Assembly: GCA_963681505.1 (NCBI GenBank)
Contig: OY811980.1
Span: 944,042-1,008,041 of the forward strand
Source of the DNA: Eunapius fragilis
Taxonomy: Eukaryota; Porifera; Demospongiae; Spongillida; Spongillidae
DNA: 64,000 nucleotides
Direction of reading: 5' to 3'
Of this stretch, positions 346 through 39,482 are shown piece by piece. Within the stretch, counting starts at the first letter, position 1, and every line of letters begins with the position of its first letter. Under the pieces are notes generated by a model. That model saw only the letters and a program-made list of their open reading frames with translations, did not search any database and was not told where the DNA came from. Made by a program: the position numbers and the translations under genes.

Positions 346-3300
346 GTGCAGGTCTCCAGGTTTATTACTTTCGCCAACCAATCCCACCAAACCCTAATCC
401 CATTCAATCCTGGAAGGTTGAAGGGCTGGCCACATGGATTATGCAGAGTGCCTTCAGTGATAACCTGGACTGTAACACAACCTCCAATAATGGGACTGGT
501 GTTGGTTGGAGGAGGACACAAGCCACTCTAAACCCTAACTGGATACAGGCAGTGACAAATGGGAGGCGCCTAGTACTTGATAGCTTCACCAACAGTAACC
601 TTGGGATCTACACATGTTATGATAATGTGACCAATGAGACTGTGACCATTAACATCACTAATGGTAAGCAGGACAATATACTTAGCAGTGGGCAAAGAAG
701 TTATGAGCAATTAGGGTGCTAGTTTACCATATGAGAGAACAGTGGACCTGGTTGTTTCCAAGGGTTACTGGGACATATATGGTAGGAATGGGAGGATGCT
801 GTTGGCAGGAAGATCCAATGTTGGTGTACATGTCGAATGACTTTGGTCACTAGCTGGCCAGATGTTCAAATCTATGTCTTCCCACAAAAGTGCTTGTGGT
901 AAAAACACCATGGGTATTTATGTGCCACACCTGTCACATACCCATCTATACACATACACATACACACATGCGCGCACACACACATGCACGCATGCATATG
1001 CACTCCCTCCCACCAAAAAAAAAGCCAATCCAGCCATCCAGGCAGTCAGTGATGTTGTCAACATTGAAGCAGGCTCCAGTGGACAGCTGAAGGTGTATGT
1101 CTCTGGTATCCCTGATCCCTCAAGTACAGCCATCACATGGTTCAAGTTGGGTCCAGGAGGGACCATGACAGAACTGAAGGAGCCAACAGTGAACTTCTCC
1201 AGTGATCATCGAACACTCCTGCTAACCAATGTTCAGGACAGCAATGGAGGGACCTACATGTGTGCCGTTGCTTTTCCCACAACCTCTGTTTCATCAACTC
1301 TAAACATTAACGTTTCTTCAGCTTCCACTTTGAAAGGTGAGAATGATGATGTCAAGTATTGAAAAAGATTGCATGTGTGAATGAAGTAAGTACTACCCCC
1401 AATGGTTTGAATGAAGTAAGTGCTACCCCCAATGGTTTGAATGAAGTAAGTGCTACCCCCAATGGTTTGAATGAAGTAAGTGCTACCCCCAATGGTTTGA
1501 ATGGCAAAATAGTAAGCTGTACCAACACCACATAGGATAGGATAGCTCGATAGGTAATACAGTGTGCTTATCATGTTAGTGTGGTCATAAGGTTTGACAT
1601 CATCCAGTATTCGTAGTGTGGTCATCTGGTTCATGATCATTTCTTTCTTGATACTACTATGTTAAGCAAAATGTTCATAAAGTTCATTTATTAAAGGACT
1701 GGGGATGAGGCATTGGTAAAAATGAACTCAAGTCACTATTCCTTTCTGGGGAGGGAGGGAGGGAGATGTGGGAAGAGGCTTGAAATTAAAAAAAAAACTC
1801 TGTGACACACACATGTACACACATGCACACATACAACACACACACACACTAACACACTCACACACACGTACACACACAGTCCATGCCGCTGGATGCTCTG
1901 CTGGGTACACTCAGAAGGATGATGCACAGCTATGTACAGGTAAGGCTTATTGATGTGCTGCGGCTACTCATAGTTGCAGGAACGCCTGAATCAGAATTTC
2001 TAATTTTGCTTCAGATGTCAACGAATGCTTGTCTAGCAATGGAGGCTGTCACCAACTTTGTATCAACACGAACGGAAGCTTTGTGTGTGCATGCAGGGAT
2101 GGATTCATTCTCAGCACGGACACTTTCTTGTGCCAAGGTTGTGGCGTATGTGTGTATGTGTGTATGATGTGTGTGTATGTGTATGTGTGTGAGAGTGCGT
2201 GTGTATGTGTGTTAAGATGTGTGTGTGTGGATGTAATATGTGTTGACATGTGTGTTGGGTGTGTGTATGTGTATTAGTTTTGGGTATGGGATATTTGCTG
2301 TGTTGTAGCCATGCTCCGTTAAGGTTATAGACATGCACACACTTGCCATTGTCTCCAAACTTTTAAAAAAAGTATGCATAACACACTTAAGCGTTTAGAA
2401 AGGCTTGGTATCAGACTGGCTGCTACTTTGTTTGTTGAATAATGATTGGTGTCACCCTTGGGCCATTAGCCTAATGCAAAGTAATCCCTCTCTACTCTAA
2501 CCTATAGTCGCAACACGCCCACCTGACACAGCCCTTATTTAGCCCTTTATTTAGCAGCTGCCAGATCTGTTCCATTACCTATAGCCTGAACAGTATCAGA
2601 AGCCACATGCATAGATTTGCTTCCACAAAAAAGGGAACGAATAAGCTGTGGTAGTTTAAGAGCTCACACCGAACCCTTATCTTTTTTAACTCCTTGTCAA
2701 GAAAAAAAGTGTATGGAGGGTTATTTGCTGCAGCACCATGTGGCCTGGGAACCATACACTGGTTCCCAGGCCACATGATGTAGAACCCAACGTTATGGCC
2801 TCATCCCCAGTCTCATCACTTTCTAGCTAGGTTTTAATTTCTAACCATATAGACCAGCAGTTGTAGTTTGTATGGTTTCTCACAAAGGGTACTCTAATGC
2901 TGTCAGGGTAACCACACACACCACATGTGCAGCTGGAACATGCCTATGTCTTCATTCTTCCTTCTTTTTCATTTTTGTGTGACTTGCCAAAGCAACATGT
3001 AATTGTATGCCTCAAAGAAAGGCGCCACCCCCAATGTAGCTGGTAATTGCTTTTTTTTTTTTTTTTTTGCATCCTTATACCATATTTACTAACACATTTG
3101 CAGCACATTTGATTAATAGTAAATACAAATTATTATGCAGTGTAACTGTTAAAAAAAACTGTTAATGAAAATTGAATTAGCTGTTATGCCCTCTTTTGTA
3201 AACACCCCCCCCCCCCCTCCCCCATTTCCTACATCTTTGTTTTGCCTTATATAAGTATCCACCAGTGTCTCATCTATTTTGCCAAATGCCCAGCTATCGA

Positions 3301-3769
3301 TAATAAAGGAGTATCCATAAGTGGTTATTGTTTTACTATGGAGTGTGTTTAGAATAATTAGATGCAGTAATTGATTCCCAAACATGTATCTTACTTGGAA
3401 GACCTTTCCTCCATGAGAACTAATTTTTGGATAAATATTATAATGTGGCCACCATTGATTTCATCTCCATGATGTATTCCTTTTGTCACAGTGAACTCAA
3501 CTGTAAGTTCTATTGGAAGTCACCTCGCCATGCCAGTGGCACAGTATGGTTTGGTGGCTGTGGTGGTGCTGCTGGCAGCATCCCTCACCATCGTGTCCCT
3601 CTCCTTTGCTGCCTACTGCTGCCATGCTCAGAAACTAAGCAAAGCTGCCAAGACGTACTCTGTGCACGACCCTAAAAATCTCGAGAGGTACAATGTCGAG
3701 CCTTATTTAACTACTGGAGGAGCAATGAGCGCAAGTGTGCCTGATCCTGTCTATTCAAATGTTAATTGA
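346..3769 (+). CDS. Ig/EGF single-pass receptor, gene A (5' end outside window)
   Basis: Predicted cell-surface type I receptor of the Ig superfamily, 5' truncated by the window edge because no signal-peptide exon is visible. Exons read as 352-663 (Ig1; alternative start 346), 1025-1336 (Ig2), 1880-1939 (small Cys-containing half-EGF piece), 2015-2137 (Ca-binding EGF with DVNEC start, [10 protein letters not shown] core) and 3492-3769 (stalk, membrane helix, short tail, stop). Every junction is phase 1, the class typical of shuffled extracellular domains. Ig1 keeps the Cys (LDC), Trp and LGIYTC signature; Ig2 has only the F-strand Cys (GTYMC). The helix is about [20 protein letters not shown]. 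The tail of about 50 residues holds several tyrosines, ending in DPVYSNVN, a Grb2-type YxN motif. Ig1 and Ig2 are near-identical to genes B, C and D. Exon boundaries are inferred; the ligand is unknown. Confidence 0.8.
1381..1500. repeat. 30-bp tandem repeat, 4 copies
   Basis: Four head-to-tail 30-base units starting ATGAAGTAAG and ending AATGGTTTGA, in the gene A intron after the Ig2 exon. The first unit differs by one base from the others. No coding role seen. Confidence 0.9.
2138..3491. other. Gene A last intron: TG-rich tract and single-copy sequence
   Basis: Contains a degenerate TG/TATG tract (2146-2276), a T-homopolymer near 3051-3068, and at about 2867-2950 a segment clearly similar to 18499-18585 (shared GTAGTTTGTATGG and CAGGGT...ACCACA words), i.e. 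an old dispersed repeat. No gene recognised. Confidence 0.5.
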
Positions 3770-3872
3770 AATAGGGCGGTGACAGTACATACAGACACTT
3801 CAGGGTTTGTTCATAAACATGATTCGTTATATCCTCCATTTTATTTATTTCTATAACGACCTGAAATTGAAG

Positions 3873-3878
3873 AATAAA
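3873..3878 (+). promoter_or_regulatory. Putative polyadenylation signal of gene A
   Basis: AATAAA about 100 bases after the gene A stop codon, at the expected distance for a 3' UTR. Position and motif only. Confidence 0.45.
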
Positions 3879-4354
3879 TTGAGATCAAACCTGTAACTAT
3901 ACAGGCAAAGTGAACAATCAACTAGGCTCCAATGCAGTGACTTCTCTAATTCAAGAGCACACCAGCAAAACTGCAATTGCTATTAGGTGCACAGTGTGGA
4001 TGGAGAAATGGAACAGTGTCCAGCAAAATCACCTTTATGATACTTCATCAAATTTTCCAGGACAAGCTAAAGAAAAGTATGGGTTATGGCTAATTATAAA
4101 TTCAGTGCCCAATAACTTTATGATGGATAGTCCAATTTAGGATGCGTAAGGACCATTTGATAGAAGCTCTTTGGAGTTCACGGAAAATGAAAAATTTTGA
4201 AAACTTGAAAAACTATCCAGAAGGGTGATTTTGCTGGACGCGTGACATCTGACAACAAACGGCACCTTTAGATAACATGATAAAATCTCCTCTTCTATAC
4301 TATATATAGTGACTTCTAAAAATCTGCATGCCCCAATAGAAGTTAGTGTTAGTG

Positions 4355-5788
4355 CAGGGGCGGCGGAAGAGGGGGGGCAAGGGGGGCTTTAGCCCCCCCA
4401 AATATGCATTTGGAGTTGCTCAGCCCCCCCCCAAATTTAGCGATCGATCGGACGATGATATGCTGCCGTATATTAGTACATGTACTCCATTAATACGTCT
4501 GCGTCCTCCCGGGGGTACATTTGTCTACCGCAGTGTACAGTTATTCACGTTCTGCCAGTTTGACATCCCTTTTACATTTGACAATGCATTCTAATCGTTT
4601 AGAGTTTCCCAGGCTCTAATTCATTTTCTCTGGCCGCAAGCAGACCGTCAAAGGGAAGCTATTCGATCGCGGTACGCGTAGTTAGCACAGAAAATTACAT
4701 AGAAACCACGCATATCGCGATGTAATAGTTTCACTTTGAAACCCTGGCATGGAACCAACGAAAAGAATTATACCTCGGCAATTTCGGGCCAAGCTCTAAA
4801 GGACCTGTACAACGAACATGCACTTTCAAACTGGCTGAACGTGGATAAATTTATTTTCTAAGCACCGCGGTAGGGCAAATCTACCCCCGGGAGAAGGTCC
4901 CGGTACATTAGACACTAACGCCACTGATGTTGCTGTTGAATTCTCCACTACTAACCACGAACGCACCAGATACCACAGGAAAAATCGTAGCCTTGGGTTT
5001 TTAGGGCGGTTTTTAACAAAAACCATCCTGGAATTGAGCGTCTAGCATGGAAATATAGCAAAAACCATCCTGGGATTTGGCCTCCAGGGTGGGAATGGCC
5101 TAAAAACCATGCTGGGTTTGTCGAACAAAAACCATGTTGAAGCAATAAATAAATATGCATGAGCTCAAGATGTTTTTTGTTCGACAAACCCAGCATGGTT
5201 TTTATAAGCTATACCCACCCTGGACGCCAAATCCCAGGATGGTTTTTATAAGCTATACCCACCCTGGACGCCAAATCCCAGGATGGTTTTTAAGCTATAC
5301 CCACCCTGGACGCCAAATCCCAGGATGGTTTTTAAGCTATACCCACCCTGGACGCCAAATCCCAGGATGGTTTTTAAGCTATACCCACCCTGGACGCCAA
5401 ATCCCAGGATGGTTTTTAAGCTATACCCACCCTGGACGCCAAATCCCAGGATGGTTTTTAAGCTATACCCACCCTGGACGCCAAATCCCAGGATGGTTTT
5501 TAAGCTATACCCACCCTGGACGCCAAATCCCAGGATGGTTTTTAAGCTATACCCACCCTGGACGCCAAATCCCAGGATGGTTTTTACGATATTCGCTCAA
5601 TCCCAGGATGGCTTTTTGTTAAAAACCACCGTAAAAACCCAAGGCTGAGATTATGAAACATTTTCCTGTGATCTTTGGTAGTACTGTAGTTTTACTGGTG
5701 CTTTGTAACGAAATTCATGTGATCATGGATATAATTATCGTTTGTTCAGTTTAGCCCCCCCAAATATGATAAGCTTCCGCCGCCCCTG
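4355..5788. mobile_element. hAT-like non-autonomous DNA transposon
   Basis: Ends are inverted: CAGGGGCGGCGGAAG at 4355 and CTTCCGCCGCCCCTG ending at 5788. The direct repeat TAGTG flanks both sides (4350-4354, 5789-5793). CAGGGGCGG termini are common among hAT elements, most of which make 8-bp duplications; 5-bp versions are also known. No transposase frame is visible, so it would depend on another element. Inside lie an inverted pair of CCATCCTGG-containing segments and a 42-bp minisatellite that creates long but meaningless open frames. The superfamily call is tentative. Confidence 0.7.
5200..5605. repeat. 42-bp minisatellite inside hAT-like element
   Basis: About nine head-to-tail copies, mostly exactly 42 bases, each containing GCTATACCCACCCTGGACG and CCCAGGATGG. 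Inverted, diverged copies of the same unit lie at about 5015-5140, so the element can fold back internally. Because 42 is a multiple of 3, all frames stay open across it; I do not call a gene. Confidence 0.9.
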
Positions 5789-9330: not shown

Positions 9331-9585
9331 CCGTTTCTCGGTACGCGAGTTATACCTCAATATACCTCTATTGATTAAAAAATGCATTGTAAATCAAAAT
9401 TTTTATATTATAAACCTAGAGACCGATGAAACGCATGCATGGCGTCATGGCGTGTTATGGTTATATGGCGGTATGATTGCGCGGGAAGTAACAAATAGTA
9501 TTCGAGAACGGTAACCGGTACATACATGTTACATACAACATAAAGCTTGGCTGAAATACAGACAATGGACTGCACGTGAACGAGC

Positions 9586-12500
9586 TTATACGGTAGTTCC
9601 GCACGAGAGAGACGATGAGAAGAACGCTTCACGTCTAGGTTCCGCTCGAGGGGTCGCACGTGATAACGACCCTTGATAGGCAATGACCCGATTAGTTCCA
9701 TTTTGCATCGCGAAATTTGCGCGTGATGGTGCGACTGCTCTGGGGTTACTAGACGGAAGTACTTGCACCTGGTGAGCTACTCCGTGATGGACGGGAAAAC
9801 TCACATCGCTGTCCGCCTCTTCCACCTCGTACCAAGGCTGTTCTGCAATAGTGGGTGTAAGGTCGACTGCGCATTCTGAAGCCACCGCGCAGTTGGTAGC
9901 AGAGTCGAGACTGGGGACGGGGTGCCGCCTAACCGCGGGCGGAGGCAACACTACATTCTCATAGGCCGGTGGTGGTAAGAGCACGGCGTACTCGGGGACC
10001 GATGGCAATGCTGAGCAACCATTCTTATCCCGGTTGGTGAGCGGCGGTTTTTCCGGCAACGACCCGACGAACACGTTCGACGGAGAAGTAATGCTGAGGT
10101 TGCTCGCTGGGGCCGAGGACAGAGCGCTAATGGTGGAAGTGTATAGAGTCGCGGGACCTTCGGGAATGGTTGCAGGGGTGTCTGAGCCGTATCTCCTCAT
10201 TGGAATTTTTTCTGCCGTATTTGAAGGTTGGGGTGAATGGTAGACAGCGGAGGTACTGCCGTTACCAATAGCAACGATACTGCCGCTATTACCGTCATCG
10301 CCATTACCATCAAGCGTTCTTCTGCCGTTGTCTTCAGACAGCACATTTCGGTTCTTTTCCAAAGTGACCTCCCCTGGTCTGTTGTTTGCTTGCAGCTGCA
10401 CTGAGCCTTCATCAGCAGTGTTGGAGGAGTTGTTTCTCTTAAGGCTGTCCCGTTGGAGTCTGTTGTAGGAGGAGGGATTCAGAGCGTTAGCCCCAATTAT
10501 GCCGCTGTATTCATGGCTAGCCATGGGTTCTTTGGGTACCACAAGTGGGCTATAAATAGGATCTTTACCAGGTACATGAGAGGGTGAGGAGGTGGGAACT
10601 CTGGATGGACTGTAACGAATTTCTGTATCAGTGGTACTTGGTGTTTGTACTAAGGATGTATGGTGTTGGATAATGACCTCCCCATTGCCCGTATGTCCAC
10701 CATCTTGTACATGGAACAGGACATTGGTGCTGGACTTGGACCTTGGACTTGTTTCTGGCCTGAGGGGAAATGAACATACTAAACTCACGCCCACTCCACT
10801 TGCTGCTTAGCAACCTCACCCTAAGTAATTCATTGTAATTCTCCTACATTAATCAACTTCTCCCATTATCACAACTGCTATCCTTTTTTTTTCTTTTTCT
10901 TCATGCAACAATACTAACTTTACAGCATGGAAATGCAACATCGGGTCACACCACACCATCACGCGGGTCACACTGCCCTTACCACGTTGCTGTCCCAGCA
11001 AGAGGTTTGCTGTATCTGAAGTAGATGCATACGTACAGCAGCACAGCCACAGCCACCAGAGCCACAATGGCCCCACCCCCTGCACCCACACCAATGATGA
11101 CAACAGGCAGAGGTGCAGCGGTGCAGCCCTGTGAAAGGTCGCAGTTGGAGATGGGGACGTTTGAGGTAGATGCAACTGTTGTTCCTGTGACCGTTGCTGT
11201 GGCTGGAGCTAGGGTGAAAAACAAAAGGGAAGATTTGGGTCAGTTGCACCCTGTGTGAGGGACATCTGGGGCTTACATTGAAGGGTGGCCTGGGGCTGTA
11301 CCTGAACGTAAGCAGGCCGAGACCGCACAGATGAGGTACTGTTTGCAATGGCCTGGCACCAGTACTGGCCGCCATCTTGGGGCTGTATGTCCGCTATGGA
11401 GAGGGTACTGGTGGTGGTCTGTGTGTGGAGCGAGCACGTGTGTGCTGATGAGCTTTCGCGTTGTGATAGATAGAAACTGAATGTGAACGTACTGTTGAGT
11501 TGCCATATGTGACAACAGCGGTTGAAGATGGAGGGAGGCTCCACCCACTTGTCCTCATCCATGTGATGGCTGGGGCGAGCAACCCAGTGGCAGAACAACT
11601 AAGAGTGATGTTAGCTGACTGGATCACCGACTGGTTGGAAGGTTGCTGAGAAATCACAAGAGCAGAAGCTGCCGAACCAACAATCTTTTAAATGCATGTC
11701 ATAATATTGGTTTCAGCCCACCATTATTTCTTGTGATGGCAAGAGTTATGAAGACATTAGCAGATGGATATTGTGGAATGTTTTGAGTCACAATACACAT
11801 GTAGGTCCCTCCATCGCTGTCCTGAACATTGGTTAGCAGGAGTGTTCGATGATCACTGGAGAAGTTCACTGTTGGCTCCCTCAGTTCTGTCATGGTCCCT
11901 CCTGGACCCAACTTGAACCATGTGATGGCTGTACTTGAGGGATCAGGAATACCAGAGACATACACCTTCAGCTGTCCACTGGAGCCTGCCTCAATGTTGA
12001 CAACATCACTGACTGCCTGGATGGCTGGATTGGCTGTATGTTTACATAGCAGTTTATAATTAGGCTGTTATGTAGATATCAGAGAGCTACAGCAAACATT
12101 AGTGGCTAGTGGTGTATTATGAAATTTGATCAGAAATGTGGTTCTATATACAGTCTCAAGGGCACCACTTTAGTTCCCTGCGCTCTTGCCATACTTAGGG
12201 CATAGATTGTACATTGTAGACATAGATAATGTGTGGTACCTGCCATTAACCATGAATATAATTTTCAATACACCAAAACGCTTACAACAACACAGTAGTT
12301 CCTGTTTTGATCATTACTTCGCACCATGTCATGACATTAGGTGTTTTAATTAATATATTTGCAACACTGTATTTATATAATAAGCAAGAGTTTGTGATGT
12401 GCAGTGCATAGTAAACCATGACTCACCACTTGTGATGTTAATGGTCACAGTCTCATTGGTCACATTATCATAACATGTGTAGATCCCAAGGTTACTGTTG

Positions 12501-13051
12501 GTGAAGCTATCAAGTACTAGGCGCCTCCCATTTGCCACTGTCTGTATCCAGTTAGGGTTGAGAGTGGCTTGTGTCCTCCTCCAACTAACACCAGTCCCAT
12601 TATTGGAGGTTGTGTTACAATCCAGGTTATCACTGAAGGCATTCTGCATAATCCATGTTGCCAGTCCTTCAACCTTCCAGGGTTGAATGGGATTAGGGTA
12701 TGGTGTGAATGGTTGACGAAAATAATAGACCTGGAGACCTGAGGAGCAAAGAAAAGCGATTAGCGATTCTATTTTGGAACACAATTGTTTGCTACACTTC
12801 TGAGAACGCAAGAAGCGTTTACTGGAACATAAGTATTTTATCAAATAAAATCTATATTTCGCACGAGCCGAAGGTTCAGACATATTCAGCAGCCATCGCG
12901 GTGCGCCGAACGCTTGCATATGCTTTTTTTTTTTTTTTTTTTTTTTTGCCGCATGTGCGTCGAATCGCGGTGTGCACTCACCCGTGGTACCAGCTGATCG
13001 AAGCAATGACCCGCACAAACTGAGCATCAACAAAGCCCGCCAGAAATCCAT
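9586..13051 (-). CDS. Ig receptor with long tyrosine/proline-rich tail, gene B
   Basis: Complete type I receptor of 803 residues. Exons: 13051-12982 (signal peptide MDFWRALLMLSLCGSLL, 70 nt), 12738-12427 (Ig1), 12033-11722 (Ig2), 11668-11493 and 11418-11277 (Ig3, split by a phase-0 intron), 11208-10983 (stalk and membrane helix, residues about 372-402) and 10759-9586 (cytoplasmic tail and TAA). The lengths sum to 2412 nt. Ig1 carries the LDC...LGIYTC pair; Ig2 has only GTYMC; Ig3 has LSC...QYWC. The tail of about 400 residues has PEYAVLLPPPAYENVV (a YENV Grb2-type site among PPP stretches) and PWYEVEE, and is related to the gene D tail. The family suggests adhesion or recognition coupled to tyrosine phosphorylation; ligand and signal sign are unknown. 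Splice sites are inferred; the Ig2 donor reads GTGGGC, which is weak. Confidence 0.85.
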
Positions 13052-13176
13052 GAATCGAGGAGCTCGCTGGAGTTCACCTTAAACTATCAAACACGAATGT
13101 TTAAAATTGCTAAGCGATGGATTATAAATATCAAGGCTAGCGGGGGGGGTGGGGTCACACGCCTCCGCATGGACCA

Positions 13177-13260
<84 letters not shown>

Positions 13261-14310: not shown

Positions 14311-14317
14311 GGTATGT

Positions 14318-23932: not shown

Positions 23933-26900
23933 ATGCCTCGCTGCGGTCCACTGGAGTTGGTTCTTCTTCACTGCTTGTGTGTAACAGCCGTTCCAGGTGA
24001 GCTGCTGGCTGTTGTATATACCATAACGGATTGTAAGTGTGCATGTATCCTTTCAAAATGTGGCAACACGTACTTCTGAGCAACACTAGCCACTTCACCC
24101 GGTTATCACCGAAATGTTTACAAATTACGCACCCGCACACACACGCACACACATACGCACACACATACGCACACACACACATACACACACGCACACGCAC
24201 ACAAACACACACACAACACGGGGTTCTCATATAGAACGATTCCAGAACCGTTCTTAAGATGTATCAAAGGACGGTTCTGGACCGTTCTATCGCGATAGTG
24301 TGAACTCGTTATAAGCTTGAATTCGCCAAAGATAATATTATCTCTCTTGACTAACGAATGCCTGGACATGCCAGAAGTGGAAGACAAACATTTACGGTCA
24401 AGTTGCAATTAGAGAGGAGATGGACAGTTTTTTCCCAACTTATAAAAAACATGTCCAAGCACCACTATGAGACATATAAATATACAAGTAAATAAAAACA
24501 TTCTCTATGAGAAAGTTGGTGGCATATAGGATTTGAAGGCAATGGTGGTGTAAAAAGGAAGGAAACAAGGGTCTAGTAATAAGGAAAAATGGAATAGTCC
24601 TATATTTAGCACACGAACAACATACTATATCCTACATATAGAAATGTGCTAAATATAGGACTATTCCATTTTTCCTTATTACTAGACCCTTGTTTCCTTC
24701 CTTTTTACACCACCATTGCCTTCAAATCCTATATGCCACCAACTTTCTCATAGAGAATGTTTTTATTTACTTGTTTCATTGATTTTTATTCATACCCGAT
24801 TATGAGCCGTATAGCATGTTAAGTAATCCATCTTGATATGAGAGGGAGGTTGTAAAGGTACGACATACCATTGAGTGACCTTAACTTTTTTCGCCGAGCG
24901 AGATGCACGTTCAGGACTATGGCAATATCGCTGTCTTTTTTCAGGATCTGCTCGATACCTTGCACGTCGAGAGGTCCGTTCCTTTTCAGGATCTGAGGGG
25001 GCTTTTAAGGGGCGGCCGAAATAGAAGAGAGGTTATTAATTGTCGCCCCAGCGCGATCGAACCCACAAACGCATTTTGTATCGGGCCAGAAGCAGACAGC
25101 ACCCTCTCCCCCACTAATCGCATCTCGATACCTTGCGCGTCGAGAGATCCGTTTCTTTTCAGGCTCTGCTCGATAGTTTTCACGTTTGAGAGGCCCGCTT
25201 CTTTTCAGGCTCTGCTTTGTAGTTCCGCTCGGGCTGAATCTAATACGTCGTCTCTAGTTTTGAGGTACTATGCTCGTCGTTTGGCTTTCTCCTTATCCTG
25301 ACGTGCATGAAGGCATTTTGAGAAAAAAAAACTTCACTAAGTTACAAAGAGCGTCAAACCTAAACGATAGAATGATTATAGTACGCACGTGCACGTTATT
25401 AAAAATACATAACCGCCAAAGTTAATTACCACTACGTGTAGTGCCCAGACCGTACACATTTGATGTATACTGCTAGTACTTCGTATAAAGAGCGACGTAG
25501 GACCTATCCGAGTCGTGTCAGTGCAGTAAGCTATACGTGATTTGCTAACACAACCACCGATAAATGTCATGTAGCCTCGAGACGTTTTGACCACAGAAGC
25601 GAAAATGCCAGTAAATTCTGAAGCCATTGGTGTGATTTTCATTTCTTAAAAGTGTTCCTATCCCGAGTTATGCGTGGTCAAGAACAAGAACAAGAAGAAG
25701 AAGAAGAAGAACGAGAAATACGTGGGACTGGGTACGAGTTTCAAAAATTGTTTTGTTCTCTACAACCACGCGGTTTTGTGACATCAAACAAACACGAAAC
25801 TGCTTGTTGTTGCCTTCTTGTACGACGACGATAACAAGGTAAGCCATCCGCTCGTCGGGAGTCTTGTTAGAAGCGGGTCGCGTTTTTTTAATGACATTCA
25901 TAATCGGGGTCAAATCCTATATGAGAGTTACTAACGTAACTCTCGATATTTCTTATTTTTGTATATAGTATTGGATGGGTTTAATTCTCTACCTTTGCCT
26001 GCTGCTGCTCACAACGGTAGAAAACTTTAACTACTTGGTATTCTTACTATAAAAGGTGCTTTAACCTACTTACTACAGCGGAATGTGTGTAGTATGCAAG
26101 CAGAAATGCTTTATTAGTAGTGTAGTTCTCTCAGCATAAAAAGAGCTGCATAGGCCAGCTATGTGCATGAAGCAGCTAGGTCCCATTGATGATATCACAA
26201 GAGAGTCATTATCATCACGCAATCTGCAAAGCAGTGTGATTCAATGCTCCTTAGAATGTCTCTGTTCCACAGTATCCAAATACTTTTCATCAGTTTTCCT
26301 CGCTCTCCACTTTCAGTTCCAGACTTATAAAGCCTTGGCTTTTTTATAAAATGTGGTTTGCAATTTTTCTATAGCATGATGAGCAGGTCTCTACAGGAGC
26401 TTGTGCACACAAACACAAACTGAGTTTCTCTCCTCTGCTCCCTTCACACTTCCTTTCACAATGCCTCTATTATCCATTGTGTCCATCTTTACACTTTTAT
26501 TCAGGTGCAGGTCTCCAGATTTATTACTTTCGTCAACCAATCCCACCAAACCCTAATCCCATTCAATCCTGGAAGGTTGAAGGACTGGCCACATGGATTA
26601 TGCAGAATGCCTTCAGTGATAACCTGGACTGTAACACAACCTCCAATAATGGGACTGGTATTGGTTGGAGGACACAAGCCACTCTAAACCCTAACTGGAT
26701 ACAGACAGTGGCAAATGGGAAGCGCCTTCCAACTGATAGCTTCACCAACAATAACCTTGGGATCTACACATGTTATGATAATGTGACCAATGAGACTGTG
26801 ACCATTAACATCACCAGTGGTGAGTACATACATATAGAGGAATGCATGCATACTCCTGCAGTGTATGGTGTATTCATGACATATATATACCACTGCACAG

Positions 26901-28020
26901 CCAATCCAGCCATCCAGGCAGTCAGTGATGTTGTCAACATTGAAGCAGGCTCCAGTGGACAGCTGAAGGTGTATGTCTCTGGTATTCCTGATCCCTCAAG
27001 TACAGACATCACATGGTTCAAGTTGGGTCCAGGAGGAACCATGACAGAACTGAAGGAGCCAACAGTGAACTTCTCCAGTGATCATCGAACACTCCTGCTA
27101 ACCAATGTTCAGGACAGCGATGGAGGGACCTACATGTGTGCCGTTATCCATACTAATGTCACAATGTACATCAACATATCGTGTCCAGGTAGGATACTAT
27201 TGATGACAGTAAGGGGTATAGACAGATGTGACAGTTTAAAGTTTCTACATCTGGGTTAATTATAAATTCCTGCATGCATCAGTCTTCTAGAAATATATGT
27301 GCTTATGTACCATGTAACAATAGATATTCTAGGCTACTCTATAGTCAGTCCTTAAGGTAGAGATGCCTTGGTCCCAGGTAGATGGTGGATGTTTGGCATG
27401 TGTACTTTGTTTAAAAGCGAGTATGTTGTTGTTGTCAGCTTACAGTTTTCATAATATAATGAAAGATGACAGACTAATTGCCCTTGCATTGGTCCTGCCC
27501 AATTGAGTGACTGTTGTATGTTCTGAAAGGACCCAATGTTTTTGGTTTTGAAGAGGAGGTATACAGAGGGGGATTTGGCAGGTAATTAAGACAAGGTCCA
27601 CAACAATTCATCCATGATCTGATCATTTAGCTGATAAATTTCTCTGCTATGAACCAATAATGCCACATGCTCATTGTCCTGACAGGGTGTGCTATCCCCA
27701 CCAGCAAGACCACACCCAGCAACACGCCCACCAATACACCCACCTATACAAGCCCACCTTCCTGTGGTGGTACAATCGATGCCCTCCATACATCTGAGTA
27801 CACTCTGGTAGTGATAGTGATAACGCTGTCATCATTGTTGGTACTATCCATGATGACCAACGTTGTGTTCCTTGCATGGCTGCTAAAGACAAGGCAAAGG
27901 TCATGTTACCAAGTAAAACAAAGTTCACATGATCATATTGATAGTAATCCAATCACTTCCAGCACATGCCAACTCCATCCAGAAGGCGAAGGTGATTTAG
28001 TCTGCAGCAGTAAATTCTGA
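23933..28020 (+). CDS. Short two-Ig receptor with Thr/Pro stalk, gene C
   Basis: Complete type I receptor of 331 residues. Exons: 23933-23996 (signal peptide MPRCGPLELVLLHCLCVTAV, phase 1), 26511-26819 (Ig1, one codon shorter than its siblings), 26901-27188 (Ig2, with a divergent C-terminal strand AVIHTNVTMYINISC) and 27686-28020 (TTPSNTPTNTPTYTSPP stalk, membrane helix about residues 261-286, 45-residue tail, TGA). The lengths sum to 996 nt. Ig1 keeps its Cys pair; Ig2 has only GTYMC. The tail has a single tyrosine (CYQVK) and no long proline-rich part, unlike B and D. Intron 1 carries a 1.4 kb foldback element. Exon 1 was chosen because it is the only nearby ATG-initiated hydrophobic peptide ending in a phase-1 GTGAGC donor, as in B and D; this link is the least certain part. 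Confidence 0.78.
24120..24215. repeat. CA-rich microsatellite in gene C intron 1
   Basis: Degenerate CACACGCACACATACGC tract about 120 bases after the exon 1 donor. Confidence 0.9.
24484..25955 (+). mobile_element. Foldback element, young copy, in gene C intron 1
   Basis: Starts with a perfect 129-base inverted repeat: arms 24484-24612 and 24646-24774, loop 33 bases. It is followed by about 1.1 kb of unique sequence with a (AAG)n run and the words ACGACGACGATAACAAGGTAAG, and ends near a small hairpin GAGAGTTACTAACGTAACTC. Nearly identical to 44891-46300 and related to 7716-9330. There is a short open frame from about 25670 (MRGQEQEQEEEEEEREIRG) but no recognisable transposase. MITE-like or an unclassified foldback family; no clear target duplication was found. 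Transcription of intron 1 would yield a long perfect double-stranded hairpin RNA. Confidence 0.75.
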
Positions 28021-29131: not shown

Positions 29132-29136
29132 TCAAA

Positions 29137-29238: not shown

Positions 29239-32200
29239 TGGTGGCAGCTTACTGGGATTGAAACTTGAACGACTCTCCTTGTTCGGGTGCGTGGAAACAT
29301 GGCTACATATCAACTACCGGCAGTTGAGTGCTTCGATTTTGGAAAACCGGGAGACTGGCCTAGTTGGGTTCGCAGATTTGAGCGTTTCCGGGAAGCATCG
29401 GGTCTGAAAGAAAAGGAAGAAGAGGCGCAAATTAGTGCTCTAATCTATATGATGGGAGATAAGGCAGAGGACATTTTACGCTCTTTCGGTTTGAAGGATG
29501 AAGACAAAAAGAAGTACAAGGTAGTGCGCGATCGATATGATGCTTACTTTGTCAAGAAGCGGAATGTCATTTACGAGCGCGCCAAGTTTAACTTACGGAA
29601 ACAGGAGGATGGAGAGCCTGTGGACGACTTTGTTACATCTTTGTATTCCCTGGTCCAGTATTGCAACTTTGGAGACCTTCATGATGAATTGATCAGAGAT
29701 CGACTGCTGGTAGGTCTTAGGGATGCAAACCTTTCTGAAAAGTTGCAGCTGGATTCAGAGCTTACTCTGGAGAAGGCCATTGCCATAGCACACCAGTCTG
29801 AAAGTGTAAAGCTACAGCAAGCTACAGTAAGGGGAGAACAGAAGATTGTAAATGTGGAGCTGGAAGCTGTATCAGCCAAACAACGTTTATCAAAACTACA
29901 ATCACAAAGTGGGGGAACTGGGTCCCCATCTGGTAAGCAGTGTTTTAGGTGTAGGCGATTTCCACCCCATGCCTTTCACCAATGTCCAGCTAGAAATATC
30001 ATATGCCATCGCTGTGGTAAACGGGGGCATTTTCAATCTCACTGTCAAACTCCTACAGATATTAGTACAGTTAGTAAGCAGAGTGGCACTGGTTTTGTTG
30101 GTATTTTAGATGCTGGGGAAGAAAGACCCTGGTTTGTCACTCTTCAGCTTCAGGGCATAAGTGTGTGCTTCAAAATAGACACAGGGGCAGATGTTACAGT
30201 TATCCCAGAGTCAGTGTTTAAGAGAATAAAGGATGCAAATCTGATGCATAGTGATAGGATACTGTGTGGTCCTGCCCAAATTGCTCTCCATGTTATTGGC
30301 CAGTTTACTGCTACATTGAAGCACCGTGGTGTGGTTATTAGTGAGGGAGTGTATGTAGTACGAGGCTTGCAAACACCTTTAATTGGCCTTCCAGCAATTA
30401 AAGCTTTGGGATTGGTTGTACGAGTGTGTGCTACTGAATCGGAGGATTATACCACAAGAATACTCAATAGTTATCCTGAGTTGTTTACTGGCCTTGGTAC
30501 ACTGGGTGAAGAGTACACAATACGTCTAAGGCCTCATGCACAACCTTTTGCATGTCATACTCCACGGAGAGTTGCCCTCCCACTCATGAATGCTGTGTAA
30601 GAAGAGTTAGAGAGAATGGTAGAGTTGGGAGTGATTAGGCCAGTACAAGATGCAACAGAGTGGTGTGCAGGGATGGTTGTGGTTCCCAAAGCAGATGGCA
30701 AGATACGTATATGTGTGGACTTCACTAAATTGAATGAAAGTGTATGTAGAGAGCTACACATGTTGCCTTGTGTGGAGCAAATATTAGCGCAGCTTAGTGG
30801 AGCAAAGTTGTTTTCTAAATTAGATGCAAACTCTGGTTTTTGGCAAATCAAGCTGTCAGAGTCATCGTCTCCACTTACAACTTTCATAACTCCATTCGGG
30901 AGATTTTGCTTTCAAAGACTTCCATTTGGGATCACTTCTGCACCAGAGATATTCCAGAAGCGAATGACTGAAATTCTTCTTGGTCTTGACGGAGTTGTGT
31001 GTATGATGGACGATGTCTTGATCTTTGGGCCAAATCAAGAAATCCATGACATGAGGTTAAAAGCTGTGTTGCAGAGGGTCAAGTCTGCTGGGGTTACATT
31101 AAATAAAGACAAATGTGTATTCTCTCAGAGCAGTGTGAAATTCCTGGGACAAATTGTAGATGCACATGGGGTGAGGCCGGATCCAAACAAAGTGACTGCT
31201 ATCAGAGAGATGGCTGCACCGACAAACACAACAGAACTTAGACGATATCTTGGGATGATTAATCAACTTAGTAAATTCACTCCTAATATAGCGGAACTCA
31301 CCAAGCCACTTCGAGAGTTGCTGAGTAAGAGGAATCAGTGGACATGGAATGAAACCCATCAGAAAGCATTCTCTAAGTTGAAGGACGAAGTCAGTACGCA
31401 ACCTGTTTTAGCTTTGTACTCTCCCAAGTTGGATACTATTGTGTCGGCGGATGCTTCTTCATATGGCATTGGTGCTGTTTTGCTCCAAAGACAGCTTGAT
31501 GGATCTGTAAAACCAGTTTCATATGCCACTAGATCCTTAACTCTAACTGAACAGAAGTATGCTCAGATTGAAAAGGAGGCTTTGGGTGTAACATGGGCTT
31601 GTGAGCGCTTCAGAGACTATCTTACAGGACTTCAATTTCAAATTGAGACAGACCATAAACCTCTTGTACCACTCCTGGGGTCGAAGAACCTGGAGGATTT
31701 GCCATTAAGGGTTCAGCGTTTTCGACTAAGATTGATGAGATAAGTACACAGTTTCACATATACCAGGAAAAGAGTTGGTCATTGCTGATAATATACCAGG
31801 AAAAGAGTTGGTCATTGCTGATACATTGTCGCGAGCTCCAAGCAATGAAGTATGTCAGGAAGACAAAGAGTTTAGAGCAGAAATTCAAGCTTATGTCGAC
31901 CTGGTAGTTAGGAATATACCTACTTCTGAACCAAAGATGCTGGAAATAAAACAAGCTCAGCAGAAGGATGAAATATGTCAAAAGGTCATTCTATACTGCC
32001 AAGATGTTGGCCTGATAAGAGTCTTGTTAAGGGTGAATTGAAGCAATTTTTCCACGTCGCATCAGAACTTTCTGTGGAAGATGGCTTGTTGTTGAGAGGC
32101 AATCGGATAGTGATACCGATGGCTCTACGTGCACCAGTTTTGAATAGATTGCATGAAGGACACTTGGGAATCAACAAATGCAGGGATCGTGCAAGGGAAT

Positions 32201-32399
32201 CAGTGTGGTGGCCTGGTCTAAACAGAGAATTGGAAGTAAAGATTAGTATGTGTACCAAGTGTATAAAATCGCATTCTCAGAAGCCAGAACCTTTGATGAT
32301 GTCAAAGCTACCTGACTTGCCTTGGCAGAAAGTTGCAACTGACCTGTTTAGTTGGAAAGGTTCACAGTATCTTCTTGTCATTGATTATTTTTCTCGATA

Positions 32400-33452
32400 C
32401 AGTCTACCCTTGATATTATCCGGTCTTTGGTCACATTATTATAATCGGATAAAATCAAATCCGGATTGAATCGCTATTGTCCGTACCGGATAGTAATGAG
32501 ATTCATAGTGAATTAATGAACCGGTCCGGACATAAAATAATTCAAGCATTACAGTTCAATGTATGGTTAGAGCGGTTTAAAATAGCTAGTAATGGCAACT
32601 TGTACGTTGGGTTGCGCTCTCGCTACCTGTGGTGTATATTCTTTCAGAATCGCTGGAAGAACACGTAGTGCAAAACCGACACCACCCATATCTGCTTCTG
32701 CTGCTTCACCACGGAGTTCAAAGCAGGACAAATGAAAACGATTCTTGAAATTCTGCAACCAGCCTTTAGACAGCTTCAGCTCATCTGCAGTTATTCCAGC
32801 AGAATCACGAAGAATATGCGCTTTTTCTGTCAGTACACCGTCCGTAAGGTGACCATTATTTGCCAGAATTAAAGTTTTGTTTCACCGCATCGTATTGCAC
32901 GCATCGCCCTTCACAGCAAACCTGTTTAATCCAAATAAACAGCGTGGCTTCTAGAGTTGGAAACATTCCCGGCGATTATGCTTGCTTTCTTTGTTGGTGG
33001 CAGCAAGCTGCTCCCAGTGGTGTAGCCCCAGTTTTCGCCATTTACGGATCGCATCTTCATTTAACGTGGAGCCAGGATGCGTAGCACGCCACCACCGGGA
33101 AGCATCAGCATGACTCAACCCCTGCTTTTCAGCATATTGTACGATTTCTAACTTATCTTGGTTAGTAAGCTCTGTCCTCACTCGTTTCGACATGTCTCAG
33201 GATGTGTATTGAAGTGATTGCGCCGCCAGCCTTTCATTCGCGCTAACAATTGGGCCTCATACGATGCTATCAGGTGGGCTATTGTGGTGTTTGATACTAT
33301 CCGATAACTACAATAACAAGCGGATAGGGATAGTATCAAAATCCGGATAAAAACAAGATTATAAATGGCTTGTAACAGGTCTGTCACAGCATTTTAGGAG
33401 GATAAAACCAAATCCGGACAGATACAATAAGGATAATATCAAGGGTAGACTG
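32400..33452 (-). mobile_element. Pogo/Tc5-type DNA transposon inside the Gypsy integrase
   Basis: Terminal inverted repeats CAGTCTACCCTTGATATTAT (32400) and its inverse ending at 33452, flanked by TA on both sides (32398-32399 and 33453-33454), as in Tc1/mariner-pogo. Subterminal GGATAAAATCAAATCCGG (about 32445) has an inverted partner near 33400. On the minus strand a frame starting at 33193 encodes a psq-like helix-turn-helix (LTNQDKLEIVQYAEKQG, then AIRKWRKLG). A second piece near 32740-32760 gives WLQNFKNRFHLSCFELRGEA, the CENP-B-type DNA-binding region. No DDE catalytic domain is present, so the copy is non-autonomous but retains transposase DNA-binding sequence. Confidence 0.85.
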
Positions 33453-34482
33453 TATGTGGAGCTCTCCAAACTTTCTGCAACTACATCTCAGGATGTAATC
33501 AACCAAATGAAATCTATTTTTGCAAGGCACGGAATCCCAAATGAAGTGGTCTCGGACAATGGTCCTCAGTTTTCATCAAAAGTATTTCACTCTTTTGCTG
33601 GGGAATATGGATTTGTTCACACCACCAGCAGCCCTAGGTACCCTCAAGGAAATGGTGAAGCCGAACGGGCGGTGAGAACCATTAAAAACATCCTTGACAA
33701 AACAACAGACCCATACCTTGGTCTTCTTGCATATCGTTCCACTCCGCTCCGTAATGGTTACAGCCCGTCTGAACTTTTGATGAATAGGAGATTGAGGACC
33801 ACAGTTCCTACGTTGGGGTATAATTTATACCCATCAGTACCTAACTATCCTCAGCTCAGAGCAATGGAGGAAAGAGATAAACAGAAACAGAAGAGTGATT
33901 TTGATAGACGTCATGCCAGTCGATCTCTTCAACAATTGATGCCAGGTGATCAAGTGTGGATTGATGATCAAAATTTGAGAGGATCTATAGTGAAGGAATA
34001 CTCCCCAAGGTCTTATTTGGTTGAGACGGAAAGGGGTACACTGCGGAGGAACAGACGACAGCTGAAATTTCTCCCAGGGGAAAAGGATCATAGTCATTCA
34101 GCCGTAGTACACAATGGTGGAGGTGTTAGCAGTGCTGATCCAGTGCCCCATAATGTTGTTATCCTTCGAGATGAGGAAGAGACACCGAGGGAGCAGCAGG
34201 AAGCAGCAATAGACCCACAAGAACAGGAAAGGACATTACAAGTGCCGGAAGAATCAGTTGAATCACATGAACAAGAAGCGGTTGGACAACAACAAGGACT
34301 AGAGGAAGTAGCTGAACCACAAGTGCAAGAGCATGAATCAGAAGGGCAATATGAGACTCCAAATCTAAATAATCCCAATGCATCTGGTTCTCATAAGCAA
34401 CAGGAGTTAGCTCAACCAACACCAGTCATTACAAGGAGCGGTCGTGTATCTAGACCACCAAATAGGCTCTAGAAAAGGGAGA

Positions 34483-34584
34483 TGTGGAGTGATGAACTAT
34501 GGACACATTATTACGCATACTATGTTGTATTAATGCACGTGATGTGTGGTGATTATTAATTAGAGTTTCGAGTAACACGCTACA
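34483..34584 (+). repeat. 3' LTR (102 bp)
   Basis: Identical to the 5' LTR. Preceded by AGAAAAGGGAGA (34471-34482), a purine-rich tract of the type that primes second-strand synthesis. Confidence 0.93.
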
Positions 34585-34589
34585 TCAAA

Positions 34590-35290
34590 CTGTACAGATA
34601 AGGGTCAAACTCTCTTACAGTATGTACGCCCACGCCTCATTTAGCGAAACACTGTGATCAATCCCTTACTCTAATATTTATGCTTTTAGCCATGCAGACG
34701 ACGACACGGATTTTTGACGGACAATCGCTAAACGTACGATGGCCAGCCGTATTTCACGGCTCCGGCCAGGCATATTGGCGGCCAACGGTTAGCACAATAA
34801 TCGGCAATCTCTAATGGCTGCTGCCGGGCGGTCAAGGGCCGCGGCTAATAGTGCTAAACAATCAGTAGCTCAGTACTAATACTTATGAATCAAGCCTCTA
34901 TTTCATACTCTCCTTTTGTTGGATATGTCAGTTATTAAATTATAAGGTGATATCCGAAAATAAATGAAAATTTATCATCCGGATTTTTTCTCAGTTGAAA
35001 ATTTCCCAAATTGCGGGGTTAAAGTATATGTATGAATCATTCTTATGCCTTTCAAGTGCCGATCTATTTTTTGATGATGATGTATTCATTGCTGATGAGG
35101 TCGTATCGCTCAGCAAGTACAGCTGTCATACATTCATAGCCAAAATATCCTAATTTGGATAGGTTCGTCTTGGGGGGTGTCCAAAAACACGCCCCAAAGA
35201 GGTAGTGTATCGCAAAGAGCGCACGTAATAAATATCTGGTCCGGAGAGTTTCAAGTCAACTTCGTTGGTCAAGTTGGACGTCCACCGAAC
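34590..35290. other. Upstream region of gene D
   Basis: Between the Gypsy element and the gene D signal-peptide exon, so the promoter is expected here. No TATA box stands out; AT-rich with a GC-richer part (34720-34860). No gene recognised. Confidence 0.4.
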
Positions 35291-38200
35291 ATGGGCACGA
35301 GCACGCACCTCCTCCTCCTCCTCCTCTTAAATGTCCTTCAGCAAACAGCGGCGCCCGCAGGTGAGTGGCGGCAGAGATAATCTCTGGTGGCGGTAGGTTG
35401 TGTGCGTTAGTACCGTTGGGTGGTGCAATGTGGTTTCGGCGCATTCAAATGCGCACGCGGTCAGGGCTACTGATAGTAACCGGGATAAGGGCAAACAAAA
35501 CGTTTTTAAAAATAAAATAAAAATAAAAATTTAACAGTCATACTCACGATACTCGTAGCTAGCAACAAAAGTTATGTATCTTAGCTAGCAACAAAAGATA
35601 TGTATCTTAGCTAGCAACAAAAAGTTATGTATCTTAGCTAGCAACAAAAGATATGTATCTTAGCTAGCAACAATTAAAAGATATGCAACTCAGTAACGAA
35701 TCGCTCAAATTAGTGACAGCGACTAGAGTCTAATTGGTCTTTTTTATGCTGAATCCCTACCATGCATACAATTATACGCAGCACTGCCGTATCATCGACG
35801 TAGTGGTTTTGATCGCGTTGCGTCTACGTGCATTTTTTTTTAAATTCACGCCTTTAGAATTATTTCATCAGCCAAAAAAAAAAAAAGAGTCCGTTTTTGT
35901 ACCCTCCCGTCGTCAAAGTTGATGTATGGAGGTGAAATGGACGAGTTTATGTTGAAGATCAAGTTACATGCACCCACACATATATACACACATAGACACA
36001 CAACCATACATCCATCACATCATACACATGCCAACCACACCCACACACATATGCACACCCTACACCAAACACACACCCACACATGCACATGCACACACAC
36101 ACATACAAAACTCATAAAAGCTTATATGGTTGAATTAGGAAATCTTACTCTGTCTATAATTCTTAATTGAGGACGGATTAACAAACTGCCTCTATTTTAG
36201 CTCTGGGATATCAGAGAGAGGGGAGAGAGGGATGCCTGCTTGATGACAATACTACATGATATGACCACTTTCATTTAAACAACACAATAGAATAAACAAT
36301 AGCAGACCATTGAGAACCAACTGTGCATATGGGGATCCTTTGTACCAGCACTTTTACATACAAAATCAAAGTCGAGATGAAGAGGAAACCAACTCACAAA
36401 ACAACAACTCCTGGCAGCAGTATAACCTCCACAGTATAACCTCCACAGTATAACCTCCACAGTATAACCTCCACAGTATAACCTCCACAGTATAACCTCC
36501 ACAGTATAACCTTCACAGTATAACCTCCACAGTATAACCTCCACAGTATAACCTCCACAGTATAACCTCCACAGTATAACCTCCACAGTATAGTCTCCAC
36601 AATATAACCTCCACAGTATAACCTCCACAGTATAACCTCCACAGTATAGTCTCCACATAGTCTCCACAGTATGACCTCCACAGTATAACCTCTACAGTAT
36701 AGCCTCCACGTAACTTGATAAACACAGCCACTAAATTCAAAAAAGTGTGAGCATCCCATCAATGGAGAGGAGTTATACTTGCATAGCCTTTCTCTTTTAG
36801 TGTCCTTATCATTTGGTATTCCCACTGTCTTGTAATCAGGTCTCCAGGTCTATTATTATCGTCAACCAATCCCACCAAACCCTAATCCCATTCAATCCTG
36901 GAAGGTTGAAGGACTGGCCACATGGATTATGCAGAATGCCTTCAGTGATAACCTGGACTGTAACACAACCTCCAACAATGGGACTGGTGTTGGTTGGAGG
37001 AGGACACAAGCCACTCTAAACCCTAACTGGATGCAGGCAGTGACAAATGGGAGGCGCCTAGCACTTGATAGCTTCACCAACAGTAACCTTGGGATCTACA
37101 CATGTTATGATAATGTGACCAATGAGACTGTGACCATTAACATCACCAGTGGTGAGTACATACATATAGAGGAATGCATGCATACTCCAGCAGTGGTGTG
37201 ATCATGACATATATACCACTGCACAGCCAATCCAGCCATCCAGGCAGTCAGTGATGTTGTCAACATTGAGGCAGGCTCCAGTGGACAGCTGAAGGTGTAT
37301 GTCTCTGGTATCCCTGATCCCTCAAGTACAGACATCACATGGTTCAAGTTGGGTCCAGGAGGAACCAAGACAGAACTGAGGGAGCCAACAGTGAACTTCT
37401 CCAGTGATCATCGAACACTCCTGCTAACCAATGTTCAGGACAGTGATGGAGGGACCTACATGAGTAATGTGACCCAAAACATTTCACTATATCCATCTGC
37501 CAGTGTCTTCATAACACTTGCTGTCACAAGGAAGAATGGTATGTTATTGCAAAAGAAATAATGGTTATGACAGTGGGAAAATAAAACATTACTAAATGAT
37601 GTACATCTGTTGAAGTGATATCGTGAACAATTACTAGAGACAAAGGGGAGGCTAGCCACCTTGGATCACGTGCATGCAGCAAAAAAATTATCATTAGATT
37701 GTAACAAGATTATGGAACCTCTTTACCCCATGCTTTATACATGAGTACCTGCAAAAAAAAAAATCATAAGATTTAAAATGCTTATTTACTTCCCCCACTG
37801 ATCCTATCTAAGTACAGCCATTCCTCTATCGTACAAAAGTGTAAACCCTTTGGACAGCTCCATGTCTATAACGTACCACGCCCACATGGTCACAAATGAT
37901 GAACCATAGTCAGTGTGTAAACAATTGACGACAAAGGTTTACATTTTTTTTTAGATATGATAGAGGATAGAGGAATGATTTTACTTGGATCAGTACGTGC
38001 ATTTGATACTATTGTGTCTAATTAACTCGACAGGTACTAGTTCAGCTCCAGTGATACTACAGCAGCCTCTAAGCGTTTCCTTGCAAACTTTGTCCGACGC
38101 TAGGCTTACTTGCGTCGTCGGCGGGTCCCCAGTCCTCAACATCACTTGGATGAGGCTGGACGCACCCCTCTCACCTAACGCTACTAGCAGCATAATTTCC

Positions 38201-39482
38201 TACAACGAAACAGTAGGGTCAAACACGTGATATCGCGAATTAACCCTTTTTCTCTCTGTAGACGACGGAAGGCATTCTTTTCATCCCATCTATACAACCT
38301 TCTGACGCAGGTCTGTACCAATGCTTGGCGACCATTGCAGGGGCAGGCTCAGTCGTGTCCGCACCGGCCAAAGTGGTCGTCCAATGTACGTTGTGTGCGA
38401 ATGTTCCCATATGCACGCACCGGTACCAACTCCAACCACCCCGCAGCCCTAGGTTTCGGGAGCTCGCCAACGGCGACCCCCGGGGTCAAAGTGACCACTG
38501 CTCCCGTTAGTGAAACGATCATTGTCTTCGTGTCGTTGATAATCGGGACGTCACTTGTGGCTGGATGCCTGAGTGTGGTCATTATCATATGTCGACTGAA
38601 ATGTATCGGAACTTCTAATAAGTAAGTTCTTATTCTTTTTTTTTTGTTGTTGTAAATATCAATTGAAATTTGTGGGTTTGCAGGCAACAAAACTCACCAG
38701 CGCGGCATATTCAACTTCAAGATATTATCCCACGCAACACCAGTCCACTGGTTGGAGATATCGATACACCACATGATGACGTATTCGTCAGAAGTAACGA
38801 TGCGCCCAGGGGCTCCAGGAGACTGCGACCGCTGGATAGCACGTCCAGCACTGCCGGCCTGCTGGAGAGCCAAAACACGCGTCATTCCTCCACTGAAGAA
38901 GACACACACAGCTCCTCAGCCAACCAAAACACACGTCCTCCCTCCACTGAAGGGGTCAGATACGCCCTCCCCACTGAAGGCAGGATTGCTACAATGCCAA
39001 ACTATGCGACGGTTTTGCCCTCAATTCCAAGACCTCAGTCACCTGAACACCAGTATGCCATACCCAGTACCCTCAGCCAGAACGCTCCACCACAGCCCAC
39101 TACCCCTAGGCAGTACGCTGACCCCATGCCTGTGCCATATTTAAACCCATCAGTGCTGAACATACAGGCTTCTGCTTCCCAGAGCCCCGAGCCACACGCA
39201 GACCCAGCAGGAGGGATGGTCGCGCAGCAGAGACCCTGGTATGAGAGCAGCAGCTCAAGTCTCAGACAACTGGGCATTCCCCGAGATGAAATACAGCCTT
39301 ACGCTACCACAAGCAACCTGTCAATACCACTGGAACCAGTAACTGAGCCTCCTCCTCGTCCACCCTCCACACTGCCTCGATCACCAGTTCCACTCCCCTA
39401 TGCGGATCCAGCACCGATTAGACAGAGTCTGGAACTACCGAACAGTCACCGCACACTATCACATAGTATGAGTGCTGTTTGA
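35291..39482 (+). CDS. Three-Ig receptor with long tyrosine-rich tail, gene D
   Basis: Complete type I receptor of 656 residues. Exons: 35291-35360 (signal peptide MGTSTHLLLLLLLNVLQQ; 70 nt, the same length and phase as in B), 36840-37151 (Ig1), 37227-37538 (Ig2), 38034-38212 and 38262-38385 (Ig3, phase-0 intron inside the domain at the same place as in B), 38447-38621 (stalk, membrane helix about 357-381) and 38684-39482 (tail). The lengths sum to 1971 nt. Ig1 and Ig3 keep their Cys pairs; Ig2 reads GTYMS where siblings have GTYMC. The 275-residue tail has NYATVL, QYAIPS, QYADPMPVPYLNPS, PWYES, QPYATT and PYADPAP, i.e. several YxxP and YxN sites among prolines, candidates for SH2 and SH3 binding. 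The tail is related to gene B. The Ig3 first donor is GTAGGG, weak but required by frame. Confidence 0.87.
35565..35685. repeat. 27-bp tandem repeat in gene D intron 1
   Basis: About five copies of TATCTTAGCTAGCAACAAAA with short spacers. Confidence 0.85.
36416..36710. repeat. 15-bp minisatellite ACAGTATAACCTCC, about 19 copies
   Basis: Head-to-tail 15-base units (CACAGTATAACCTCC) in gene D intron 1, ending about 130 bases before the Ig1 acceptor. A few units carry TAGTCTCC variants. A stop-free frame is due to the unit length. Confidence 0.95.
37539..38033. other. Gene D intron between Ig2 and Ig3
   Basis: No repeat or gene seen apart from short A and T runs. Confidence 0.4.

Follow-up and report, generated by a model that had tools for sequence, protein, structure and literature searches.

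A tandem cluster of immunoglobulin receptors with paired-receptor-like evolution in the freshwater sponge Eunapius fragilis

Introduction

Sponges discriminate between self and non-self. In primates, CD300A and CD300C are clustered receptors of the immunoglobulin superfamily (IgSF) with conversion-homogenised heads over divergent tails, such that the heads are more similar within a lineage than between orthologs (PMC12447643). Hydractinia has 40 Alr and Alr-like genes on chromosome 3, some of which are possibly pseudogenes (PMC11876637). In sponges, a receptor tyrosine kinase with immunoglobulin (Ig)-like domains is known from the cell surface of Geodia (cited in PMC12018476), Syk-related kinases have been reported (PMC9601881, PMC9486129), and genes for adhesion and aggregation factors were not significantly enriched in a study of grafts (PMC5450542). 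In the open-access literature surveyed, no cell-surface Ig receptor is named as shown to tell self from non-self in a sponge. Here we analyse 64,000 nucleotides of Eunapius fragilis (“the window”), positions 944042–1008041 of contig OY811980.1, called C10 below, in a single assembly of 219 Mb and 24 contigs. The window carries four genes, A to D, for Ig receptors that have in common two nearly identical domains, Ig1 and Ig2 (“the head”), and belong to a cluster not described in the titles and abstract openings of open-access PMC text that were surveyed.

A first-pass annotation of the window had likened these genes to the paired receptors of vertebrates. The likeness lies in a common head homogenised over divergent tails, as in CD300A and CD300C, in linked genes, and in an immunoreceptor tyrosine-based activation motif (ITAM) in gene B. 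It does not extend to the conserved inhibition motif (ITIM) or to a charged residue in the transmembrane segment (TM), neither of which was found (seven TMs checked). Unlike in vertebrate paired receptors, the ITAM lies in the receptor's own tail, the converted head consists of two Ig domains, and only sponge proteins turned up as close relatives. With Hydractinia Alr the genes share clustering and a transmembrane IgSF architecture in an early-branching animal, but the sponge family has conserved one-to-one tails. Like the Geodia receptor they encode sponge cell-surface proteins with Ig-like domains; unlike it, three of their long tails (those of B, D and of a further member, F) contain no kinase domain, since no Pfam family was found in them. 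We place the cluster as IgSF receptors with paired-receptor-like evolution, members of neither the vertebrate paired receptors nor Alr.

Results

The annotation had described a family of four genes with almost the same Ig1 and Ig2 exons, and was exact as to coordinates, lengths and phase. The Ig1 exon has 312 nt in A, B and D and 309 nt in C, the Ig2 exon 312 nt in A, B and D and 288 nt in C, all in phase 1-1. Pairwise DNA identity among the four genes is 89–96% for Ig1 stretches (89% for A and C, over a longer alignment of 443 nt) and 95–98% for Ig2 stretches, and Ig1 is 90–95% identical within Eunapius. The family is larger than four, as Ig1 has 16 matches genome-wide: six on C10, nine on contig C9 and one on contig C13. 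A search of the flanks for further members, which the annotation had proposed, found two within 17 kb upstream of A–D, namely E (Ig1 at C10 position 938841) and the divergent F (Ig1 at 928684). The Ig2 search gave 20 matches at an E-value of at most 0.001, including broken halves of single exons and two weak outsiders.

The sponge-like character attributed to the DNA was borne out. The close matches with a species name, P0001, P0003 and P0007, are Ephydatia muelleri proteins; P0002, P0004 and P0005, whose EukProt identifiers begin with Em, are read as Ephydatia muelleri too, P0008 is one more close match, and the other matches among the 25 listed in a profile search are distant IgSF proteins. 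Tail identity is 216/390 (55%) for B and P0001, 135/255 (53%) for D and P0002, and 188/338 (56%) for F and P0003; for A and P0007, TM and tail are identical at 53 of 91 positions (58%). Compared with one another, the four long tails (B, D, E and F) reach only 26–32% identity. They are divergent, as had been claimed, but not unrelated, for they share short motifs. In the tail tree, B groups with P0001 (support 100/100), D with P0002 and P0004 (98/99), and F with P0003 (87/93). Each of the four paired tails (A, B, D and F) has its own Ephydatia counterpart and therefore predates the separation of the two species. Signal peptides also score best with the tail-defined counterpart for A (z = 4.9), D (z = 4.4) and F (z = 4.8). 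For F the score with P0001 is about as high, P0001 and P0003 having the same signal peptide. For C and E, the protein searches yielded no Ephydatia counterpart; E itself was not among the queries. The P0001, P0003 and P0007 entries give contigs of equal size, from which the cluster is probably old.

The heads follow other lines. Ig1 of B is 90–91% identical to those of A and D and 48% identical to that of P0001, and P0001 and P0003 are 91% identical in Ig1. In approximately unbiased (AU) tests on the Ig1 tree, the tail-defined groupings A+P0007 (p = 0.0007), D+P0004 (p = 7×10−5) and D+P0002+P0004 (p = 0.003) were rejected, as was B+P0001 in both runs (p = 5.8×10−5 and smaller). The same tree unites P0004 and P0007 (100/97), whose tails are of the D type and the A type, respectively. 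Fixed one-to-one orthologs, which the annotation had held to be contrary to its proposal, are thus found for the tails and not for the heads. Ig2 before its break is too short and conserved, and leaves most branches unresolved. The Ig1 tree omits P0005, which is truncated at its start, the tail tree omits the C13 copy (G13), and four of the nine C9 copies entered the trees. These comparisons indicate that in both species heads pass from gene to gene, with different partners, and that the outer parts stay.

The edges of the common head are sharp. Among A–E, the number of synonymous substitutions per synonymous site (dS) is 0–0.13 in Ig1 and 0.02–0.07 in the stretch of Ig2 that runs to the F-strand Cys codon. 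Beyond this codon it is at least 1.19 for five of ten pairs, saturated for four, and 0.36 for B–D, values taken from few codons with uncertain alignment. In four of the five A–E pairs shown, DNA differences per 20 nt rise at the F-strand Cys from 0–2 to 10–14; the exception is B–D, as only these two genes remain similar up to the end of the Ig2 exon. Divergence had been placed after Ig2: it is real, but begins inside the Ig2 exon, B–D excepted. The introns between Ig1 and Ig2 of A and B had no match to those of the other genes in DNA comparison, and a short one (75–81 nt) is common to C, D and E. F, whose Ig1 differs from that of C by 3–14 per 20 nt, is the same as C at all 80 sites at the start of Ig2; for the C13 copy, 79 of these 80 agree. 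For A–E, 4 of 2000 permutations reached the Sawyer-type runs statistic; once F, G13 and one C9 copy were included, 50 of 2000 did. The matching silent sites point to conversion, and not to purifying selection on the protein. Since three tail-defined pairs are rejected in Ig1, and homogenisation stops after the F-strand Cys of Ig2, Ig1 and Ig2 appear to have been exchanged between genes with both ends staying put.

In the four tail pairs, tyrosines are conserved more often (30/38) than other residues (536/1038; Fisher one-sided p = 0.0006). The B tail contains a canonical ITAM, DPIYSPL-x11-YSGI, at 10498–10563 on the minus strand, which is kept in P0001 with an altered spacer; when the B tail was shuffled 20,000 times, an ITAM arose in 36 cases. 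A search over 12 tails was positive for three: B, P0001 and P0008. The last comes from a 1343-nt contig and runs through Ig3, TM and a D-type tail with no intron, as a relative's transcript might; its ITAM, absent from D and P0002, is probably due to chance. Elsewhere on C10, two SH2 exons are followed by a kinase-like reading (the kinase part judged by eye), and the joined tandem SH2 pair has Syk as its best match (E-value 1.8×10−45).

The nine C9 copies (loci L014–L022, spanning more than 6 Mb) are nearly tail-less. Seven are open through Ig1, Ig2, an Ig3 remnant, a TM and about a dozen tail residues, and two are interrupted in Ig2. They are only 71–73% identical to the query in Ig1, the best-homogenised copies being the neighbours on C10. 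Their longest aligned pieces are 89–99.7% identical to each other, one pair reaching 99.7% over 3.3 kb, and their TM resembles that of B (by eye). Other Ig exons on C9 come in pairs with identical scores, and this contig may be rich in recent segmental duplications. The strong matches of the long F tail in the genome are F itself and the C13 copy, with weak ones in E (E-value 0.35) and at two further places (E-values 0.03 and 0.32). In the C13 paralog of F (L048), an insert of about 1 kb splits the tail exon, so this paralog may be disrupted or may have acquired an intron.

Spliced open frames encode 803 amino acids for B (13051–9586, minus strand), 331 for C (23933–28020, plus) and 656 for D (35291–39482, plus), with a GT donor and an AG acceptor at all internal splice sites. 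Gene A (352–3769, plus) is open from Ig1 through the stop; its signal-peptide exon is probably C10:943457–943526, outside the window and ending about 0.5 kb before its start. A consists of Ig1 (352–663), Ig2 (1025–1336, the common part ending near 1263), EGF-like exons (1880–1939 and 2015–2137) and an exon for TM and short tail (3492–3769). The EGF assignment made for A stands in so far as exon 2015–2137 is above the Pfam EGF cut-offs; its use is unproven because its donor is weak (GTTGTG) and the exon is absent from P0007. On the minus strand, B has its signal peptide at 12982–13051, Ig1 at 12427–12738, Ig2 at 11722–12033 (common part to near 11795), Ig3 in two exons (11668–11493 and 11418–11277), stalk and TM at 10983–11208 and the tail at 9586–10759. 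The plus-strand gene C is made of exons for the signal peptide (23933–23996), Ig1 (26511–26819), Ig2 (26901–27188) and, in a single exon, a Thr/Pro-rich stalk, TM and short tail (27686–28020). D, also on the plus strand, has a signal peptide whose best match is P0002 (35291–35360), Ig1 (36840–37151), Ig2 (37227–37538), Ig3 in two exons (38034–38212 and 38262–38385), stalk and TM (38447–38621) and the tail (38684–39482). In E, G13 and a single C9 copy, the signal-peptide scan pointed to no credible exon; it is a crude scan (the known B exon was absent from its six listed rows).

The family belongs to the immunoglobulin superfamily by curated domain cut-offs: Ig2 of B scores 39.8 bits against an I-set cut-off of 23.7, and Ig3 of D 54.2 against an Ig_3 cut-off of 30. 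Ig1 alone remains below the Pfam cut-off (17.6 bits), with I-set and others as sub-threshold matches and no V-set call; the Ig1 region of P0002 gives a sub-threshold V-set_CD47 match. By eye in the alignment, the usual B-strand Cys is absent from Ig2 of A–F, of the C9 copies and of the Ephydatia proteins, which leaves one unpaired Cys; D lacks this one too, a Ser replacing the F-strand Cys at 37463–37465. AlphaFold2 models were poor, with a mean pLDDT of 38.8 for D Ig1 (alignment of 8 rows) and 37.1 for P0002 (5 rows).

Between C and D, open frames at 29269–34472 (plus) resemble gag, reverse transcriptase and integrase; we take this to be a Ty3/gypsy-type retroelement. Stretches in the first intron of C (24483–25401) recur 20 kb away (44890–45837) with 98–100% identity, and are probably a mobile element. 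On the strand opposite to D, and ending 300 bases past it, a frame of 1146 amino acids (39782–43222, minus) has a cyclic-nucleotide-binding domain and an internal run of 27-nt repeats. Rfam gave nothing within the 64-kb window. Further along C10, about 0.25–0.36 Mb past the end of the window, a larger tandem array that consists of other Ig-domain exons (C10:1262117–1371250) had no match to Ig1 or Ig2 of the A–F family in the genome-wide searches.

Discussion

The reading that we favour, with a probability of roughly 0.6, is a tandem family of single-pass Ig receptors whose head is exchanged by conversion and which works in a paired-receptor-like manner. Its evolutionary part is very probable. 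Exon-scale gene conversion would exchange Ig1–Ig2 between paralogs, so that many receptors present one head within a species, and the outer parts (signal peptide, Ig3, EGF or mucin-like stalk, TM and tail) would be old, separate lineages. Its functional part, a shared ligand, phosphotyrosine signalling and competition between outputs, is tentative and stands a little below even odds. One ligand, whether self, non-self, microbial or matrix, would be read by several outputs: the ITAM tail of B, the long tyrosine-containing tails of D, E and F, the short tails of A and C, and the C9 copies, which could be decoys or competitors. At the level of sequence, the proposal is carried by the exchange of heads, the tails with Ephydatia counterparts, the conserved tyrosines and ITAM, and the Syk-like tandem-SH2 unit in the genome.

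Another history would have the genes arise as recent tandem duplicates, their downstream parts then diverging or being replaced without any exchange between old genes. The high Ig1–Ig2 identity among A–E is what it would leave behind, but A, B, D and F each have a tail with a separate Ephydatia counterpart, Ig1 rejects three tail-defined pairs, and the signal peptides side with the tails; we regard this history as highly improbable. The comparison with Ephydatia thus adds that recent duplication alone does not explain the common head. Exchange, on the other hand, need not have a function. The genes could be ordinary adhesion receptors whose tandem exons convert each other, the common head being without functional meaning. 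Homology alone suffices for conversion, F with its distant Ig1 was left out, and it is the neighbours on C10 that are best homogenised. Similar exchange between other partners in Ephydatia, the resistance of both gene ends and the abrupt stop in Ig2 speak against such neutrality, which on balance we find somewhat unlikely.

The annotation had also pointed to Alr-like allorecognition, in which Ig1 would serve as a polymorphic label with affinity for the same label on other cells, one individual's receptors sharing it. A tandem IgSF cluster in a sponge and heads that change genes in both species would fit, as would two near-identical Ephydatia D-type tails (252/271) that carry Ig1 domains only 63/97 identical. 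Between species, however, like-type Ig1 does not evolve faster than the tails (55–71% versus 51–58% identity), Ig1 stays under the Pfam cut-offs with no V-set called, and no cnidarian Alr is named among the 6, 3 and 25 protein matches listed in word-limited searches, two of which considered at most about 8000 candidates, the 25 being those of the profile search. Such a mechanism appears clearly unlikely.

Several observations weigh against the reading that we favour. The sharing of the head is incomplete, as F, although in the same C10 cluster, keeps a different Ig1, only 46–47% identical to those of B and D. In the Ig1 tree, D+P0002 is not rejected by the AU test (p = 0.18), and the A–E clade of the best tree has a support of just 75/95. 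The B signal peptide has no clear assignment (z = 1.6), and the Ephydatia proteins are predicted models that could include chimeras. Conservation of tyrosines is weak in single tail pairs (p = 0.07, 0.03 and 0.21). The ITIM pattern occurs once each in B, F and P0003, never at conserved places, and shuffling yields means of 0.4–0.7 per tail; inhibition through ITIMs is therefore unsupported, and the TMs lack the charged residue noted above. Finally, the homogenisation might be neutral, a side effect of homologous exons lying in tandem.

A bolder proposal, and in our view a long shot, is that the cluster is a self/non-self locus of freshwater sponges, with the Ig1–Ig2 head as the individual's label. 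Conversion would keep the same label on ITAM–Syk receptors, on other tyrosine receptors and on tail-less ones, so that each contact would elicit opposing outputs. If so, paired-receptor logic would exist in sponges, either independent of the vertebrate one or much older. Freshwater sponges hatch from gemmules in the laboratory, which makes the predictions practical to test. The locus has few genes, and their parts lend themselves to tests: the exchangeable head, the ITAM tail, the other tyrosine tails and the tail-less copies. The conversion-based exchange that we favour would show that a head kept common by conversion over divergent tails, as in vertebrate immune receptors, is present in an early-branching animal lineage.

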